Part shown: piece by piece, positions 41,802 through 49,544 of the stretch
Layout of the letters: every line of letters starts with the position of its first letter
Position numbering within the stretch: position 1 is the stretch's first letter
Source: Alphaproteobacteria bacterium
Lineage (GTDB): Bacteria > Pseudomonadota > Alphaproteobacteria > Rhizobiales > JAJFHC01
NCBI GenBank assembly: GCA_021775805.1
Contig: JAJFHD010000054.1
Coordinates: 113,277 to 177,276 of the forward strand
Direction: 5' to 3'
Length of the DNA: 64,000 nt
Translations under genes and position numbers: made by a program
Notes under the pieces: model-generated
Seen by the model: only the letters and a program-made list of their open reading frames with translations
The model's database searches: none
Told to the model about the DNA's origin: nothing

Positions 41802-42091
41802 AAGGAGCCTTTGTGCGGCAAGCGACCCGGATTGGCGGCACTGACGACCCGGGACCTGATGGACGAACCTGCTGAAAGTTCACAAATAGTCGACATTGCC
41901 GCGTACTTGACACCCTTTGTCTCACACGGTTCATGAGATGAAGCTGCCTCTAGGGGCAAATTTGGAGGTGTGCAGAAACGCAAGTTCACTCTGCACCGAT
42001 ATGGAATTACCCTCTCACCCCCTTCACTGTAAATTCGTCTTATCGCATCGATTGTAGAAGTCGGGCATTTGGACAGATGGAGGTTTTAGGG

Positions 42092-42733
42092 ATGAGACTG
42101 GTCAGGACACTCGGGACATTCTGCGCCATTCTGGCGCTGGGCGTCACAAATGTTGCGGCCGATGAGCCCATGGGCTTTTTCGTGACCAGCGTCGGCATGG
42201 GCGACGGGGGCAACCTCGGCGGCCTTGAAGGTGCCGATTCCCATTGTACGAAGCTTGCCGAAGCGGCCGGCAGCAAAGGCCGGACGTGGCGGGCATATCT
42301 GTCGACACAGGCAGAAGGCAAGCGCGGGACTTCCGCGCGGAACAGAATCGGAAGTGGCCCCTGGTACAATGCGCGCGGCGAATTGATTGCCGTCGATCTC
42401 GATCAGCTGCACATCATGCCGAACATCTACCTGCGAACAGCCCTGGACGAGAACGGCAACCGGATCAAGGGCCGTTACGACGAACGCAACGAGCACGACA
42501 TACTAACCGGCACCCAAGCTGACGGAACGGCATATTTCCCGTGGCAGGAAGGCGACAAGACCTGCTCGAACTGGACGTCAAACGGCGAAGGTTCGGCAAC
42601 GGTCGGTCACCATGATCGTCACGGCGGCGGGAACACGTCCTGGAACGCCGCCCACAATTCGCGTGGCTGCAGTCAGGACAATTTGCGCGGAACTGGCGGC
42701 AACGGATACTTCTACTGTTTTGCCGCCGATTGA
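42092..42733 (+). CDS. Exported endostatin/lectin-like protein
   Basis: A 213-aa protein; ATG 42092 has GGAGG nine bases upstream. A signal peptide (LVRTLGTFCAILALGVTNVAA) ends near residue 22. The mature part starts PMGFFVTSVGMGDGGNLGGLEGADSHCTKL and has TWRAYLST, a Trp-rich NWTSNGEGSATVGHHDRHG region, and Cys pairs (C in DSHC, KTCSN, RGCSQ, YFYCF) fitting a C-type-lectin/endostatin-like fold found in several bacterial exported proteins. It is probably periplasmic or extracellular and may bind glycans; this is inference. It converges on the PBP-fusion gene with a bidirectional terminator between. Confidence 0.82.
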   Translation: MRLVRTLGTFCAILALGVTNVAADEPMGFFVTSVGMGDGGNLGGLEGADSHCTKLAEAAGSKGRTWRAYLSTQAEGKRGTSARNRIGSGPWYNARGELIAVDLDQLHIMPNIYLRTALDENGNRIKGRYDERNEHDILTGTQADGTAYFPWQEGDKTCSNWTSNGEGSATVGHHDRHGGGNTSWNAAHNSRGCSQDNLRGTGGNGYFYCFAAD

Positions 42734-42750: not shown

Positions 42751-42797
42751 AAAAAAGAGTCCTCCGCAACGCAAATCGCGGAGGCTCTCGCATTTTG
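42751..42797. terminator. Bidirectional intrinsic terminator
   Basis: GAGTCCTCCGC (42757-42767) pairs with GCGGAGGCTC (42778-42787) with one bulged T. It is flanked by AAAAAA on the left (U-tract for minus-strand transcripts) and CGCATTTTG on the right. It lies between the convergent stops of the lectin-like gene and the 1457-aa gene. Confidence 0.78.
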
Positions 42798-42820: not shown

Positions 42821-45800
42821 TTACTTTAGCAGCTTCCTCGACCATTTGCCGTCAGGACCGACGACACTAAGGCTGAACAGACCGGTAACATCACCGTTCT
42901 TGTCGAAGTCGTGGACGCCGGCGGCACCCTGGTAGTTGATGTCCTTGCCTTCGGCGATCAGCTTCTTGGCTTTTGCCCATTCGCCGGGGCGGACCACTTC
43001 GCCGGTCGGACCGGCAACGGCACGAAGAGCCGCAGGGATCCTGGACCGGTCAGCAGAGCCCGCCTTCTCGATGGCAAGCGCCATCAGGAAGGTGACGTCG
43101 TAACCATGCGCCGCATAGGGTGCGTCGGGATCCCCTCCAGCCGCCTTGTAGGCGTCGGCAAAGGCCTTGTAGGATGCATCGTCCGGATCGGAAGCCGCTT
43201 GCGTGATCCAGAGCCTGTCGCGCAGGTTGTCGGCACCGATCTGTTCGATCACGGATACATCGAACATGCCGTCAGCAGCATAGAACTTGTTGAACAGGCC
43301 GTTCTCCAGACTGTTCCTGATGATCGCGATGCCGCTTGAGCCATAGTAAGCGAACAGCACCAACGCTTCCGGACCGCCCTGTGAAAGGGTCGACGTTTCA
43401 GAGCGATACGACGCCTTGTTGGGCTCGTGGGCCTGATTGGCCGTAACCGTGCCGCCGAGCTTCATGTATTCGGCTTCGAAGACTTTTGCGATCCCGGCAT
43501 TGTAGTCGTCGTTCGAATAGGTCATGGCGACCTTCTTCAAACCGGCAGCCATGACCAGACGGGCAATTTCGGCGCCCTGTCGATCGTCAGATGCCGACGC
43601 TCGAAACACCGTGTCGTTGTCTTTCAAATTAGCAAGTGACGGAGCAGTGGGGGAATCTGCAAGAACAGCCACTCCTGCCGGTATTGTTACCGAGGTCACC
43701 ATGCCATTGGTAGCGCCGGAACAGTTCGGCCCGATGATGGCCACCACCTTTTCAACGTTTACCAGTGTGTTGCCAGCATCGACGGCAGCCCTGGGATCGC
43801 AGGCGGAATCACCGACAACCAGCTTCATCAAACCGCCATTGAAAAGCCCGCCATTGGCGTTTACATGGTCAGCGGCCACTTGCCGGGCCTTTAATATCTC
43901 AACAGCCAATTCCGCGATGGGACCGGTAATACCGCCGACCGAGCCGACCTTGACGTCAAAATCTGCGACAATGTCTTCATTCTTAGCCGGGTTCCAGAGC
44001 GCAACATCTGTTGGCTCGGTAATACTGGAGATATCCCACAACTGAATCGTGCTGTCGTTTCCCGCCGTCAGCAAACGTTGATTGTCTGCAGAAAGTGCCA
44101 TCGCCGTAACTGCAGCGGAATGACCGCGCAACACCGCAACCTCATCAGCAACAGCCGGGTTCCAAATACGCACGGTCTCGTCGTCGGAACTCGACAGGAC
44201 AAACCGTGAGGCACGGTCCAAAAGTACGGACCGCACGTTTCCAGCATGACCACGCAGGGCTCTCATCACTTTTGTCTTCGACCCGTAAATTGCACCTTCC
44301 GTGACTCTCGCCAACCCCCCAACCGATCCGTGCGAGACCACGTGACGTGCTGATTCACTGAAAGTCACGGGATACCTGCCATGCCACAGACTGGGTGCGG
44401 TCAGCGGTTGCGGCGCGTGATCACCCGGCGGATTTACAATTTGCATACTGGGAGCACTCAGGTTCAGAGCTACTAGTGTGCCGTCGCCGTAGCGAGCGAG
44501 AACGCTCGACTTGTTGATATGCCAGAACCCGGCCAGTTCCGAACTTTCGAAGCCCGCCAGGAATGTTGGGTCGATCGTAAGGGTATTGCGGGTGCCACGT
44601 TTCAAGTCGAATGTTGTCAGGGCGGTCCGCATCATTACGGAGAGGACTTCGGCCTCATCATCGATTGCCATTCCGAGAACACCGTCTGGAATGCCCGAAA
44701 GGACAACTTCCCGACTGACACCGGAGACAATGTTCGCGACGATAATTTTCCCCTTTGCAAACAGGGCGACATGCGTGCGTTTTCCATTCACCGCATAGAA
44801 TTCGGCGCTTGGCAGCGGCACCAAGCTGTCCTGTCCCTGAGTATTGACACCGTTGAACAGGGCGTTGTCCCCGTTTCTCAGTTTGACGAACAACCGATTG
44901 CCGTCGGCCAGGAACGTCGCGGACCGGACAGATCGCTGCACAGCGGATGTCATTTCAATACGATCACCGTCTGTCGCTCCGAAAAACAGATCGCCATTTT
45001 CGGCAACTGCTACAAACAGGTTCCCTGTCGGGCTGAAGTCTATGGATGCAATCGGCGCGTCGGCCGCCGCGCCCGACACCGGCTTGACGACAAGGACATC
45101 CCGCAAAGGACCTTCGACCAGAGTCAGTCCGATCCAGGCAACAGCCGCGACCGCGGCACTTGTTGTCCCGGCAACCGCAGCGCCTGCATTGAATGCGTCC
45201 CAACCCTTCCAGGGCAGTAGTTTGTTCAGTATTCTGGGCAGGTCGAGATCGAGCGGTCCTACCCTGCCCCCGAGAACGAACTTGATGAAAATGTGATCGT
45301 GCAGTCCACCAGCATGGTTCGGCTTGTCGAAATTGAAGAAGTCGGACAGAATCCGCTTCAGCCCTCTTCTCGGACTTCGGGCAACCTCAATTTCCACGGC
45401 TTCGGCAGGCGCGAATATTGCGCTGTACAAAAGATCCCTCAATGCCGTCCGCACAAGTCTTGAATGGGATTTGGATGTGCCGTGCAGCAAATGCAACCGG
45501 ATGTCGTCCGGCATCTTTCCGGTACGAAACCATGGCAGACGTGAGAGTGCCATGAGTCTCGTTTCCCGCTCACCAGGTCCCTCTTCCAGGTGAAGGCTCT
45601 GATCCAGGTGAAGTGTGATGTTCCACAAAGGTCTGGGAAACACGGCACAGGCAGAGAGCAGATCGTAGCCGCGTGGCCCAAGATACGATTTGAGCTGTCC
45701 GGAAAGTTCATTCAGCAGGCGCTCGCCCCGCGGTGTTCTGTCGAGCCACATGTCTTCGTCGTGCCGGAGCAATGCTGGAAACACGCTGTCCAGTGGCACG

Positions 45801-47194
45801 GTTGGTCTCAGATAGGGCGCATCGAAACTACCTGCGACCGCACCTGACTCTTCAAGCGCTTCGGCCAACGAAATCAGGCCACGTTCATCCAGAGGTATGA
45901 CACCAAAGCCGGCCTGATACAGGGTTGTCTGGTTGTGGCCCCAAAGATCTCCAGGCTGAGATACAAGAAACGCCCGCTCCTGCCAGGCACTGAAGGCACT
46001 GGTCCAGTTCCTGAGCGTCCCCTTGAACGGATCGACCAACGCGGAACCGTCGGAAGCAATCAGAAGACGCTGCGCGCCGTGCTTGGCGGCCAGATCTTCC
46101 AGCCGGATTGTGTCGAGTCTGCCCTTCTCCGAGAAGCAGATCTGGGGATCGCCATCGAAGAAGTAGATTTCCACATGCAGGTCTTCATCTCTCGCTCTGC
46201 GCACAAACTCATCGACCAGCGCTGCCTGATGATCATCGAGGGCGCTACGATCGGCGAGTAACAGATATTCAGGGCTGGTCTGCCGAGCCTTGTAGACCGG
46301 AGAAAACAGTCCCGCGCGGCGTGTAGTGGACCTCAGCGTTGCTTTTACATCCAGATTGCGCGTCGGCTGCCGGTGATGACGCCGGAGCATCTGCAAGGCG
46401 TGGACATAGTCACGCGTGCTGAAAAGAATGTTCTTCGGCCTTCGAATTCTGAGATTTGAAAGTTCCGGAGGATCGCGCTCCGAACGTCGTTGCATCCAGG
46501 CCTGACGCCTGGACCAGCGCCACAGCAGCCAAACCAGAAATACAACTATTGGCGTTGCCGCAACCGCATTGCGGATGGCCAGATAGTAAGTCGAGTAACT
46601 GTCCCACCAACCTGGCGGATCAGCGGCGGTAGTTTCCAGCACCTCTGGTTTCGGCATAGCGCGTCCGGCCTGCGGCGTCGGTGCGGTTTGTGGTGCCGGT
46701 TCCGCGTCCTTCGATTGCTGGTCTGACGGGGGCTTTTTTGCCGGCAAATCAACTGGCGCTTCGGACTTGCCAGGAGTGTCGGAATTGTCGCCGACGAAGG
46801 ACTCGTAGACTATTGTCCCGACAAATACGGCGGTGACAAAAAACAGCGCCAACAAGATATACGGAAAGACCCGCGTGCTTTTTTTTACGGCTTCATCGCT
46901 TGCATCGAGTTCATCGTCCGCAGTAGCGGTTTCAGCACCGCGGGGATCGAAATTGCGCCGCCAATCATCATAAATGCTGTAGAAGGCCACCTGTTCCGCG
47001 GACGACTTGCAAAAGATCGCTCCCAGCGCAGTCTTGAGATTCTCGGGCTCGAATGTGCCGCTGGACCCGGAGTGGAGCAGGACGGTCGAAGCGGCAATTG
47101 TCTGGTCAGGGCCAATGAAGATTCCCTGCCGCGTTGTCTCACGGATCAGACTGTGCAGATCTGAAAATGTCAGCGTTGTGGCGGGTTCGGTCAT
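42821..47194 (-). CDS. Membrane fusion protein: CoxE-N-like/VWA-like/WD40/periplasmic binding protein
   Basis: A 1457-aa protein. 1-85: helical domain similar to the CoxE N-terminus (QGIFIGPDQTI, AIFCKSSAEQVAFYSIYDDW). Membrane helices at about 110-132, 207-226 and 670-694; basic residues after helix 2 and before helices 1 and 3 predict the N-terminus and 228-668 inside, 695-1457 outside. 308-440: VWA-like domain with degenerate metal site (LLADRSALDDHQ). 710-1056: beta-propeller, with two clear WD units at 984-1012 and 1023-1055. 1078-1450: complete LivK-type binding protein (VGSVGGITGPIA, VVAIIGPNCSGA). Third gene of an operon after MoxR and TIR genes. Likely ligand sensor and VWA partner of the MoxR ATPase; function inferred. 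Confidence 0.9.
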   Translation of the reverse strand: MTEPATTLTFSDLHSLIRETTRQGIFIGPDQTIAASTVLLHSGSSGTFEPENLKTALGAIFCKSSAEQVAFYSIYDDWRRNFDPRGAETATADDELDASDEAVKKSTRVFPYILLALFFVTAVFVGTIVYESFVGDNSDTPGKSEAPVDLPAKKPPSDQQSKDAEPAPQTAPTPQAGRAMPKPEVLETTAADPPGWWDSYSTYYLAIRNAVAATPIVVFLVWLLWRWSRRQAWMQRRSERDPPELSNLRIRRPKNILFSTRDYVHALQMLRRHHRQPTRNLDVKATLRSTTRRAGLFSPVYKARQTSPEYLLLADRSALDDHQAALVDEFVRRARDEDLHVEIYFFDGDPQICFSEKGRLDTIRLEDLAAKHGAQRLLIASDGSALVDPFKGTLRNWTSAFSAWQERAFLVSQPGDLWGHNQTTLYQAGFGVIPLDERGLISLAEALEESGAVAGSFDAPYLRPTVPLDSVFPALLRHDEDMWLDRTPRGERLLNELSGQLKSYLGPRGYDLLSACAVFPRPLWNITLHLDQSLHLEEGPGERETRLMALSRLPWFRTGKMPDDIRLHLLHGTSKSHSRLVRTALRDLLYSAIFAPAEAVEIEVARSPRRGLKRILSDFFNFDKPNHAGGLHDHIFIKFVLGGRVGPLDLDLPRILNKLLPWKGWDAFNAGAAVAGTTSAAVAAVAWIGLTLVEGPLRDVLVVKPVSGAAADAPIASIDFSPTGNLFVAVAENGDLFFGATDGDRIEMTSAVQRSVRSATFLADGNRLFVKLRNGDNALFNGVNTQGQDSLVPLPSAEFYAVNGKRTHVALFAKGKIIVANIVSGVSREVVLSGIPDGVLGMAIDDEAEVLSVMMRTALTTFDLKRGTRNTLTIDPTFLAGFESSELAGFWHINKSSVLARYGDGTLVALNLSAPSMQIVNPPGDHAPQPLTAPSLWHGRYPVTFSESARHVVSHGSVGGLARVTEGAIYGSKTKVMRALRGHAGNVRSVLLDRASRFVLSSSDDETVRIWNPAVADEVAVLRGHSAAVTAMALSADNQRLLTAGNDSTIQLWDISSITEPTDVALWNPAKNEDIVADFDVKVGSVGGITGPIAELAVEILKARQVAADHVNANGGLFNGGLMKLVVGDSACDPRAAVDAGNTLVNVEKVVAIIGPNCSGATNGMVTSVTIPAGVAVLADSPTAPSLANLKDNDTVFRASASDDRQGAEIARLVMAAGLKKVAMTYSNDDYNAGIAKVFEAEYMKLGGTVTANQAHEPNKASYRSETSTLSQGGPEALVLFAYYGSSGIAIIRNSLENGLFNKFYAADGMFDVSVIEQIGADNLRDRLWITQAASDPDDASYKAFADAYKAAGGDPDAPYAAHGYDVTFLMALAIEKAGSADRSRIPAALRAVAGPTGEVVRPGEWAKAKKLIAEGKDINYQGAAGVHDFDKNGDVTGLFSLSVVGPDGKWSRKLLK

Positions 47195-47219
47195 GGCCTG
47201 TCTAAGGAGATCCGATTTC

Positions 47220-48248
47220 CTAGCGCGGTGCAGAACGCCACTGCTCGATCAGAATCCTTGCCAGGTCTTGATCGGCTTTCGTTTTGAACAAAGTTACCGC
47301 GCTCGCCCCCACGAGAGCATCGTCATTCCTGATCGAACTGTTGGGGTCGCCGCCGCGGTCGACCATCGATTGAACCCAGTTCAAGAGCTCAGCGGTTGCT
47401 GGCGGTTTGCGCAGCGCATGCCGCGGCTCACGGATCATCCAGAAGAAACTTATGGCATCATCGAGTAATGGACTGTCCGGCTTCAGATCGTCGCGCAGTC
47501 GACTTGCCACAATTTGCCTGAGCCTTTCGTCACTGGGGAACGGCACGTCGTAGTAGATGCACCGCCTGAGAAAGGCATCGGGCAACGCCTTTTCGGAATT
47601 GCTCGTCATGATCACGATTGGCTGCATGTCGGCTGCCGCGCTGATCGGTGCATTGCCGAGTTCAGGGACCCGGAAGTACATCGACTCAATCTCGTTCAGA
47701 ACATCGTTGGGAACGTCCCTTGGGGCTTTGTCCATTTCGTCGATCAAGACAACTGAGCGATGGCGCCCGCCAGGATGAACGAATTCGGCAGGAAGGATGT
47801 CCTGTACATCGGCTCTATCATTGGCCAGCAGGATCGCCTGCCCTAACGCGTTGTACTGGATGAAATGCGCCGGCGATGCATCGTTTTCACGGGCATGAAA
47901 ACGGCCCAGATGATCATAGGCGTAAAACAGGTCCCGGGCTTCTGTAGATGATTTTGTCTCAAACTTCAGCGGCACACCAAATCCCAACTCGTCGGCAAGA
48001 TTGTAGGCAAACTGGGTTTTACCGGTGCCTGGCTCGCCTGTCAGAAGAAGTGGTTGCGACAAAAGCAGGGCGACATTTGCCGCCTGAACAAGACCCTCGT
48101 CAGGAATGTAACCTTGAGGATCTGTAAGCGTCTCACGGCTGATGGAGGGAATTGACGGCCTGTTTTCAACAGACTTGTTGCGAATGTCTCCCGTATAAAT
48201 CGGTATCGACTTGTCTGTGTGGGCTTCGTTGTCTGTGGATACGGCCAT
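47220..48248 (-). CDS. MoxR-family AAA+ ATPase
   Basis: A 342-aa AAA+ protein with a GGGGGA ribosome binding site. Walker A is LLLTGEPGTGKTQFAYNLA, Walker B SVVLIDEMDKAPRDVPND, sensor 1 VIMTSNSEKALPD, and LRRCIYYDVPFPSD holds the arginine finger. About 50 polar N-terminal residues precede the ATPase core. MoxR ATPases act as hexameric remodelling machines with VWA-domain partners; the partner here is the VWA-like part of the 1457-aa protein, 25 bp downstream. The TIR gene ends 15 bp upstream. The sequence differs clearly from CoxD in this window, so it is a separate MoxR subfamily. Confidence 0.93.
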   Translation of the reverse strand: MAVSTDNEAHTDKSIPIYTGDIRNKSVENRPSIPSISRETLTDPQGYIPDEGLVQAANVALLLSQPLLLTGEPGTGKTQFAYNLADELGFGVPLKFETKSSTEARDLFYAYDHLGRFHARENDASPAHFIQYNALGQAILLANDRADVQDILPAEFVHPGGRHRSVVLIDEMDKAPRDVPNDVLNEIESMYFRVPELGNAPISAAADMQPIVIMTSNSEKALPDAFLRRCIYYDVPFPSDERLRQIVASRLRDDLKPDSPLLDDAISFFWMIREPRHALRKPPATAELLNWVQSMVDRGGDPNSSIRNDDALVGASAVTLFKTKADQDLARILIEQWRSAPR

Positions 48249-48263
48249 ACTAATTCCCCCGAC

Positions 48264-49544
48264 TCATTTGTTAGCACCATGAAGCGCACCCCTGAGATCG
48301 CCAATGATCGACTCGTATGGTTTTTCCGAAGTGTCCTCGAATGGTCTTGTTGCTTCCTGCTTCAGTGCTTCCGTATTGATAGTTGCGTAGACGCTGGGCG
48401 CTGTAACGGTTGCCCAGCGTTCGACATCTACTTTGGTCACAGGTTGGAGCTCGGGCAGGCAGACCACGCCTAGGGAGGCCTTCCCTTCAACGCTCCCGTT
48501 TGACCGAAGTCCGGATATGAATGCGTCGAGGGTGGAAGGTTTTGATCGTGAAAACATTCTGAACAACCCGGCTTTGGGCTGGCGAAGTTTCACCTGAAAG
48601 AACAGGGTGACGAGACAGCCGGTTGGCACATCAATCCGTGCAAAACACTCAAGCAGCCCGGCAAAAACCCGATTTGCCTGTTCATCCCAATCTTCCGCCT
48701 GGATATTGACACAGATGGTCGGCGATTTCCTGTAGGCCATGAGGAATGGCTCGAACTGGTTCTTGAAATGCGCCTGAATGTCATCGATCTTGCCGGTGTA
48801 CATCAAACTGAATTCACACAGGATATCGCGTAGAATGCTGTCAAAACGGGTTGTTTCGTCAAGCGAGGTCGCGGGCCAGTTTACCGATTTTCGCGTGTCC
48901 GAAAAACTGTCGTCCGGGCGTTGAACATGTCTTGGCAGCGTGTAGTTCACGTACCGTTCTGCAATACTCTTATGCAGCTCGTTGTCCAGACCATACGTCA
49001 GATAGACGACGACGCGATCCTGGGTGCCGGATGCCGGGTCCGGAATAGTCTGACGGATCTGCACACGCTGGGCGTCACGGTTCACCATGTATGCGAGAAA
49101 CGATGGCGGGTGCGGATCGGAATCCATTGTCGAATCCGTGCTGTATCCGCGATAGCCGAGGCGGCTGACTGCTGCACTCACTTCCGCGGCCAGATTGCCT
49201 TCGGCCCGCAATATCGTTACGGCACGCAGGTACTGCGGGATATCCTCCATTGGTGTTGGGACCACCTCCACCGGAAGCACTTTGTTTTCCGGTGCTTCCC
49301 ATTTCTGACGAGCCATCCCAAGTTCACTTAGGGCGTAGCTGCGCGGTGAAACTGAATCAGGGCTTATCAGGAATACAAAAAGGTCCGCCTGCCTGATTGA
49401 AGCATGTATTCGCTGGTCGTAGCCTTGGCCCGGTTTGAGGCGTTCTCGATCAAAGAAGACGTCGTGCCGATAGCCCTGCAGCGACAGCACGATCGCTTCT
49501 GCTTCGTCGGACTGCCGATGGGAATAGGAAACGAAGATCTTCAT
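48264..49544 (-). CDS. TIR-domain protein with iSTAND-like C-terminal region
   Basis: A 426-aa protein from ATG 49544 (MKIFVSYSHRQSDEAEAIV); longer starts up to 49649 lack family character. Residues 1-125 are a bacterial TIR domain: FVSYSH strand, YRHDVFFDRERLKPG, FVFLISPDSVSPRSYALSELGMA. Glu74 stands in the usual TIR NADase catalytic position. From about 165, FLAYMVNRDAQRVQIRQTI and VVVYLTYGLDNELHKSIAERYV resemble the inactive STAND (iSTAND) domain reported in conflict systems. No membrane segment. First gene of the three-gene operon; most likely its effector or signal module, cleaving NAD or making a nucleotide signal. The iSTAND assignment is by eye. Confidence 0.87.
   Translation of the reverse strand: MKIFVSYSHRQSDEAEAIVLSLQGYRHDVFFDRERLKPGQGYDQRIHASIRQADLFVFLISPDSVSPRSYALSELGMARQKWEAPENKVLPVEVVPTPMEDIPQYLRAVTILRAEGNLAAEVSAAVSRLGYRGYSTDSTMDSDPHPPSFLAYMVNRDAQRVQIRQTIPDPASGTQDRVVVYLTYGLDNELHKSIAERYVNYTLPRHVQRPDDSFSDTRKSVNWPATSLDETTRFDSILRDILCEFSLMYTGKIDDIQAHFKNQFEPFLMAYRKSPTICVNIQAEDWDEQANRVFAGLLECFARIDVPTGCLVTLFFQVKLRQPKAGLFRMFSRSKPSTLDAFISGLRSNGSVEGKASLGVVCLPELQPVTKVDVERWATVTAPSVYATINTEALKQEATRPFEDTSEKPYESIIGDLRGALHGANK

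Follow-up and report, generated by a model that had tools for sequence, protein, structure and literature searches.

Which part of a bacterial MoxR-vWA conflict system senses the event that sets it off, and what would a binding domain of the ABC-transporter type do at the end of such a system's vWA protein? Both questions are raised by a three-gene operon in a stretch of 64,000 nucleotides (the window, meaning that whole stretch) at positions 113,277 to 177,276, forward strand, of contig JAJFHD010000054.1 from an Alphaproteobacteria bacterium (assembly GCA_021775805.1; GTDB lineage Rhizobiales, JAJFHC01). The operon encodes a TIR protein, a MoxR-like AAA+ ATPase and a protein of 1457 amino acids (aa) in which a von Willebrand factor A (vWA)-like core is followed by a transmembrane (TM) helix, a WD40-type region and a LivK-type periplasmic binding domain. 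Two groups disagree on the sensing part of MoxR-vWA ternary systems, one placing it in the third component and the other in the C-terminal slot of the vWA protein. We find that the operon fits the iSTAND (inactive STAND) class of these systems, that it departs from the class in having WD40 and a LivK-type binding domain in the slot, and that putative ligand sensing by this domain is the best-supported reading.

The operon and its class

Calling of open reading frames (ORFs) in the window gives three genes, all on the minus strand, with the following features (MIDAS, metal ion-dependent adhesion site).

48264 to 49544, minus strand: TIR-iSTAND protein, third component of the ternary system, 426 aa (Pfam TIR_2 and iSTAND)
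49221 to 49538, minus strand: TIR domain, aa 3-108, conserved Glu74 kept (Pfam TIR_2, 60.3 bits; alignment column of E74)
48669 to 49091, minus strand: iSTAND domain, aa 152-292 (PF19995, 27.2 bits, cut-off 24)
47220 to 48248, minus strand: MoxR-like AAA+ ATPase, 342 aa, P-loop GEPGTGKT (Pfam AAA_5, 36.3 bits)
42821 to 47194, minus strand: vWA-like/TM/WD40/periplasmic-binding protein, 1457 aa (ORF, Pfam, hydropathy)
46949 to 47167, minus strand: N-terminal four-helix domain, aa 10-82 (AlphaFold2, block means of 86-94, but 72 at aa 41-50)
46805 to 46861, minus strand: TM helix 1, aa 112-130 (hydropathy; helix in the model)
46526 to 46582, minus strand: TM helix 2, aa 205-223 (hydropathy; helix in the model)
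45845 to 46465, minus strand: vWA-like alpha/beta core, aa 244-450, MIDAS-position D315 kept, SxS lost (profile comparison, model)
45125 to 45181, minus strand: TM helix 3, aa 672-690, predicted N-in/C-out (hydropathy; same place in the two nearest relatives, L039 and L040)
44009 to 45037, minus strand: WD40-type region, aa 720-1062, clear repeats only at about aa 972-1062 (Pfam WD40, 69.3 bits)
42872 to 43954, minus strand: LivK-type periplasmic binding domain, aa 1081-1441 (Pfam Peripla_BP_6, 138.4 bits)

The original prediction had described a tight minus-strand operon with gaps of 19 and 25 bp; the three ORFs lie as described and the gap between the MoxR and the 1457-aa gene (47195-47219) is indeed 25 bp, but the one between the TIR and MoxR genes (48249-48263) measures 15 bp. 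The TIR gene encodes 426 aa when started at the ATG at 49544, a longer ORF being possible from 49649. Each of the three proteins contains at least one domain exceeding its own Pfam cut-off, and the earlier assignments of TIR, MoxR, WD40 and periplasmic binding protein are borne out by TIR_2, AAA_5, WD40 and Peripla_BP_6, which all pass; the iSTAND domain of the TIR protein had been overlooked. Glu74 is, we assume, the usual catalytic glutamate of TIR enzymes.

For the vWA-like part of the 1457-aa protein, Pfam VWA_CoxE gives 13.1 bits, under its cut-off of 26.4, yet a profile-profile comparison with CoxE-type vWA proteins (hhalign probability 96.5%, E 8e-10) upholds the assignment made earlier. 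Foldseek returned chain 9qhe_G of the NorQD complex as best match of the N-terminal model (probability 1.00, E 2.7e-3), with MDN1-MIDAS as a further supportive fold; unrelated alpha/beta folds score like these vWA matches and none reaches E 0.001, and a VIA-align comparison made with the N-terminal half is not decisive, its Z values being middling (best 7.1) and many of the matched alpha/beta folds unrelated. The NorQ/NorD and CoxD/CoxE pairs resemble the window in combining an AAA+ protein with a CoxE-type vWA core; they are housekeeping metal-enzyme chaperones and, to our knowledge, come without TIR, TM helices or extracellular domains.

The three membrane helices proposed originally are recovered by hydropathy, with the LivK-type C-terminus behind the third. 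A scan of the species-genome collection, using an alignment of four family members as pattern, gave at least 37 loci, and among 37 relatives at least one helix precedes the core in 35, two precede it in 27 and one follows it in 27. In one further protein, P0002, a PEGA/WD40 block sits between predicted helices 128-146 and 1007-1025, which is the predicted periplasmic side. For the window's protein, aa 1-110 and the vWA core are predicted to be cytoplasmic, and the WD40 region and binding domain to lie outside the inner membrane.

Homologues found mostly apart had been named in advance as a reason to abandon the idea of a conflict-type MoxR-vWA-effector operon, which the gene set, the domains and the cohesion of the parts in relatives uphold. 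MoxR lies upstream of the vWA gene on the same strand in 31/37 loci, at no more than 100 bp in 20 of these 31 and at up to 2.9 kb in the remainder. It was not found in six: in L051, L052, L054, L056 and L063 the contig leaves less than 1.2 kb ahead of the vWA gene, in L061 8.4 kb. L059 and L061 are two vWA relatives in one genome (Candidatus Uabimicrobium amorphum), the latter without MoxR in the preceding 8.4 kb. The genes preceding MoxR were collected from the window, L039, L040 and 28 further loci, leaving out L049, L064 and L068, where MoxR has no long ORF before it, and taking in L048 a 362-aa ORF in place of a nearer one of 194 aa. Among these 31 genes iSTAND was matched in 19 (E<=0.01), TIR_2 in 9, EAD11 in 7, caspase in 3, bDLD3 in 2, and CHAT and cyclase in 1 each; no iSTAND match was obtained in 12/31, some of which are perhaps wrongly chosen ORFs or too diverged. 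MoxR itself is 80% identical in L039 and 71% in L040. Since L039 (1101-2549) carries a nucleotidyl-cyclase in place of TIR before iSTAND, beside that 80%-identical MoxR and a vWA core 63% identical to the window's, enzymes appear to be swapped among close relatives.

iSTAND-type MoxR-vWA ternary systems were predicted by Kaur et al. (2020, PMC7159879), the available text of which takes the third component as the sensing part and the C-terminal slot as the effector, and names for the slot of this class FGS, superstructure-forming, caspase, TIR, AIG GTPase, PEGA, OmpA, PASTA and Sel1 domains. A follow-up (2021, PMC8195603) adds the iSTAND2 and TERNS3 classes and, in its available text, predicts iSTAND as the invader-sensing component. 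The window has an iSTAND third component, a MoxR without VMAP-type motifs beside the vWA gene, and a vWA domain whose MIDAS is partly kept; the VMAP-type N-terminal motifs WxhapG and PsWRxa are absent, because no Trp occurs within the N-terminal 60 residues of MoxR. Like the class as described in the available text, it combines TIR-iSTAND, MoxR and a vWA protein that has TM segments and ends variably; the 4-helical N-terminal domain of CoxE type ascribed to the class may have its counterpart in the four helices modelled at aa 10-82. The class is also described as enriched in multicellular organisms. The operon differs in its slot, no binding protein being named there for the class, and in the loss of the MIDAS serines.

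The earlier statement that no described system has a LivK-type sensor in this role thus needs narrowing: such a sensor is not named for the iSTAND class in that text, but the class had already been described (PMC7159879), and the sensor idea is not without precedent, because in reported instances of the two-gene membrane system EACC1 (System 4, PMC7159879) TM helices are followed by an extracellular periplasmic binding protein in the variable position, as in the window. EACC1, as far as the available text goes, is unlike the window in having two genes, at most a MoxR-independent vWA and another constant component, so that the likeness concerns the arrangement of TM helix and binding protein only. 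VMAP systems (Dore et al. 2024, PMC10907252) resemble the window, by their available description, in that a ligand-binding module ends the vWA protein, MoxR is present and the third component starts with an enzyme; they differ in having CLec instead of the LivK fold, VMAP instead of iSTAND, and diversification by a diversity-generating retroelement (DGR) where the window has apparent gene recombination. Their CLec modules on vWA proteins were proposed as antigen sensors, with an order from sensor to MoxR to third component for the CLec-bearing systems (PMC10907252). None of the publications brought up by our literature search describes a MoxR-vWA system with a LivK-type domain, the supplementary tables that would give full architectures lying outside its coverage.

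Other assignments were tried and rejected. Against a beta-propeller MoxR-vWA system, the bpMoxR model (PF20030) reaches 13.9 bits with a cut-off of 27, and the third component is TIR-iSTAND, not a protein with TPR and propeller; against a VMAP system, the complete list of six Pfam families matched by the third component at E<=1 contains TIR and iSTAND and no VMAP model; against Thoeris, ThsB matches are confined to the TIR region, ThsA matches none of the three proteins and the neighbour genes are other ones. A phage-borne system was likewise discarded, the vWA core having no relative in viral contigs in a single-protein query that covers close relatives.

The exchangeable slot and its LivK-type domain

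Profile matches indicate that the slot position is common to close systems and that the domain in it differs. Surveyed in 35/37 loci (L044, with WD40, and L057, with a split frame, were left out), the C-termini gave, among the matches listed (25 of 55 families), FGE-sulfatase in 13, caspase, TIR and WD40 in 2 each and CHASE2 in 1, the last in L052 (2319-5849). L072 (Ideonella) has WD40 followed by FGE-sulfatase, parallel to the window's WD40 followed by the binding domain. A vWA protein ending in a bacterial sugar transferase domain was seen in L045 (11867-12523). A profile of the binding domain, built from the window, L081, L141 and P0009-P0014, matched neither P0002-P0008 nor any vWA protein encoded at the 37 loci; outside its own members it detected only L040, which is the same gene as L081. 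P0009 (1223 aa) consists of three tandem LivK-type domains and P0010 (819 aa) of two.

Within the taxonomic order, taken to be Hyphomicrobiales, four systems carry the window's own vWA core or one with at least 51% identity to it, namely those of the genomes G000 (that of the window), G143, G078 and G113, and in three of them (G000, G078, G113) the slot holds a binding domain; in G143 (L039) the contig ends right after WD40, with a low-complexity tail. Pfam Peripla_BP_6, which is independent of our profile, gives 72.9 bits in the G078 and 57.3 bits in the G113 system, and these two domains are 40% identical to each other over 348 aa. The G113 vWA gene has two in-frame stops near its start (L141, 1-480), and this copy is perhaps broken or misread.

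The window's domain belongs to the Peripla_BP_6/Leu-binding family, its contacts kept apart from the pocket-loop changes discussed below; it matches the LivK structure 2lbp at E 2.4e-22 and is 86% identical, over 97% of the query, to the free-standing ABC-transporter protein P0015 (402 aa). The vWA core and WD40 part of the same protein align with L039 and L040 (WD40 identity 46% and 28%, and 24% for L141), and its end aligns with free-standing binding proteins. This match starts at their mature N-terminus, and the signal peptide is gone in the fusion, as expected if TM helix 3 now exports the domain. Unlike the free-standing LivK-type proteins, it stands behind WD40 and TM helix 3 and has no livGFHM-like genes beside it.

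A match to the domain at E<=1e-60 occurs in 86/397 genomes of the order, G000 counted in, where the fusion itself is the only one and no close free-standing copy was found; other binding-protein matches in G000 are 22-30% identical and no close livM was found there, the best permease matches being 32-36% identical. In G036, G112 and G024 the corresponding gene (79, 77 and 76% identical) is preceded, as read by eye, by livGFHM-type ABC ATPase/permease ORFs. The native livK loci of seven genomes have no convincing flank genes in common with the window (one 29% match, L160). A comparison of pockets covered 119 of 120 binding proteins, one of 357 aa being dropped by the length filter. The window's copy keeps the positions equivalent to S79, T102, Y150, Y202 and Y276 of LivK, which we take to be ligand-contact positions; LivK W18 and E226 are L and D throughout the family.

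An identity step divides the domain in two.

43560 to 43595, minus strand: approximate mosaic breakpoint, about aa 1206, base 43577 (identity step by scan; step in GC3, the G+C content at third codon positions)

Identity to P0015 is 71% for residues 1081-1206 (126 aa) and 93% for residues 1207-1457 (251 aa), and the first part has its closest relative elsewhere, in P0020 (77%). A scan of all breakpoints picks 1206 (z -5.96), a value reached in 0/500 site shuffles; when 119 family members were compared with their nearest other member, 118 had a smaller step and one, P0094, a larger one. At sites conserved to at least 95%, the window differs in 9/69 of the first part and 0/107 of the second (Fisher p 1.6e-4, the sites not being independent); nine such changes are high, not unique (family median 1, top five members 7 to 10). 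GC3 is 0.579 before and 0.725 after the breakpoint (p 0.005), the first part being like the rest of the gene (0.608, p 0.56), and seven native livK genes have no such step (p 0.24-1.0). We read the step as the trace of an older fusion in which recombination with a livK-type gene has recently exchanged the C-terminal part of the binding domain; rapid evolution confined to the N-lobe is insufficient, because it would leave the GC3 step unexplained. The original prediction had named a sequencing error splitting the 1457-aa gene as refuting it: the gene is a single uninterrupted frame, but its binding domain is a mosaic. As P0094 warns, recombination or false joins may tend to occur in the conserved stretch near residues 1206-1223.

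What the binding domain may do

We lean slightly towards a system acting as a membrane-bound alarm, in which a catch by the binding domain in the periplasm would switch on the TIR through vWA and MoxR. The binding domain would catch a solute there and close, closure would change the vWA protein across TM helix 3, and MoxR would spend ATP to remodel the complex of vWA and TIR-iSTAND; the TIR, held off until then, would act on NAD+ (nicotinamide adenine dinucleotide), which would either produce a signal or deplete NAD and arrest growth. As the mosaic suggests, livK-type recombination would have renewed the sensor towards its C-terminus while the older pocket loops changed. The gene set, the domains, the gene order, the exchangeable slot and the ABC-transporter likeness support this reading. 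CHASE2 is a sensor-like module, and its presence elsewhere in the slot, like that of FGE/CLec-type modules, also counts in favour of sensing.

Several observations weigh against it. In their available texts, Kaur et al. treat the slot as effector (PMC7159879) and the 2021 paper makes iSTAND the invader sensor (PMC8195603), and no phage or NAD experiment on the iSTAND MoxR-vWA class surfaced in our literature search. The binding domains of G078 and G113 resemble the window's weakly (E 0.50 and 0.014) and are followed by caspase-like domains, and therefore the slot there may not sense a solute. Near the pocket, sites conserved to at least 95% are changed in the window's copy (S1157N, S1179A, A1182P, Y1205R), so that ligand binding could be altered or lost; these changes, together with the family-wide replacement of W18 and E226, are also why the domain probably has another ligand than E. 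coli LivK. In the free-standing livK-type protein P0094 the larger step, relative to its nearest member P0075, falls at residue 1223; identity steps are therefore not special to the fusion, and recombination or assembly error may have acted there too. The modelling called for originally succeeded for the N-terminal part, but the half with WD40 and binding domain gave a mean pLDDT (predicted local distance difference test) of 51.5 from seven alignment rows, too low for a blade count.

A bolder form of the sensing idea, which we regard as doubtful, is a bacterial alarm akin to nucleotide-binding leucine-rich repeat (NLR) receptors that reads the chemistry outside the cell: a swappable port would capture transporter binding proteins and be refreshed by livK recombination, and a periplasmic nutrient or signal molecule, not an intracellular viral part, would decide whether the TIR fires. 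If the binding domain proved to be the input, the exterior of the cell would be coupled to an alarm based on TIR, and new immune-type sensors could arise from transporter genes. The high identity of the slot domain to a well-studied binding-protein family provides a handle, as its ligand can be assayed and the domain deleted or swapped.

Alternatively, the binding domain might be an integrated bait, a transporter look-alike whose contact with an invader in the periplasm, be it a phage or a contact toxin, trips the TIR alarm, in the manner of the integrated decoys of plant NLRs. Such systems have been proposed to include decoy-like copies of host proteins (PMC7159879, available text), and the domain, which shares 86% identity with a normal transporter component, was apparently renewed recently. 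We nevertheless hold a bait to be unlikely, because no free-standing copy at E<=1e-60 and no close livM was found in G000, so that nothing there would be guarded, and because the pocket contacts are mostly kept.

Quite unlikely, in our judgement, is that the invader is sensed in the cytoplasm, by iSTAND or some other part, and that the slot is an effector or a membrane or cell-wall anchor rather than the input. We know of no effector activity of the LivK fold, and modules of a sensor-like kind (CHASE2, FGE/CLec-type) occupy the slot elsewhere, although the caspase domains behind the binding domains of G078 and G113 would suit an effector. According to the available texts, this is the model of the class's own authors (PMC7159879, PMC8195603) and PEGA/OmpA modules after TM helices are reported as peptidoglycan-associating (PMC7159879), while another group proposed the slot as sensor (PMC10907252).

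Also unlikely, and a little more so, is finally an assembly artefact by which an older fusion would have received its final 250 residues from the livK gene of a different locus or organism: the sharp step within the domain (71% to 93% identity, GC3 0.579 to 0.725), the similarly placed step of P0094, which false joins in a conserved stretch would produce, and an assembly contamination of 7.86% would suit it, but the tetranucleotide distances of the flanks (right 0.096; left 0.106 and 0.095) lie within the genome's own range (0.080-0.114), with at least 0.165 for 14 stretches taken from other genomes in the order, no close match for the remaining half of either joined gene was seen in G000 (other binding-protein matches 22-30%, no livM relative above 36%), binding domains stand at the same place in two other genomes, and the breakpoint sits inside the binding domain, so that the fusion itself does not depend on it. 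A chimera between organisms is disfavoured by the same profile of both flanks.

Genomic surroundings of the operon

Mean log codon frequency is -1.19 to -1.27 in the TIR, MoxR, vWA and WD40 segments and -1.12 in the binding domain; 13 other window genes lie at -0.98 to -1.16 and are more host-like than the TIR/MoxR/vWA/WD40 segments. The tetranucleotide distance of the operon is 0.142, the operon being shorter than the compared stretches and this value having no equal-length control. Ten relatives with the dienelactone hydrolase gene, which together with a DUF1554 gene is the operon's nearest neighbour, had no shared neighbours across the operon, and because of this lack of common flank genes no empty insertion site can be named.

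42761 to 42784, minus strand: terminator-like hairpin of 10 pairs with T-tract after the last operon stop

The region contains 14 terminator-like sites, with a mean of 7.0 in shuffles. The gene of the DUF1554 protein (window 42077-42733), which has a hydrophobic N-terminus, is convergent with the operon and adjoins its end. TIR-WD40 proteins seem to exist outside the operon in G000 as well, because three other long frames, of 1082, 1311 and 1160 aa on contigs C136, C141 and C8, match both domains.

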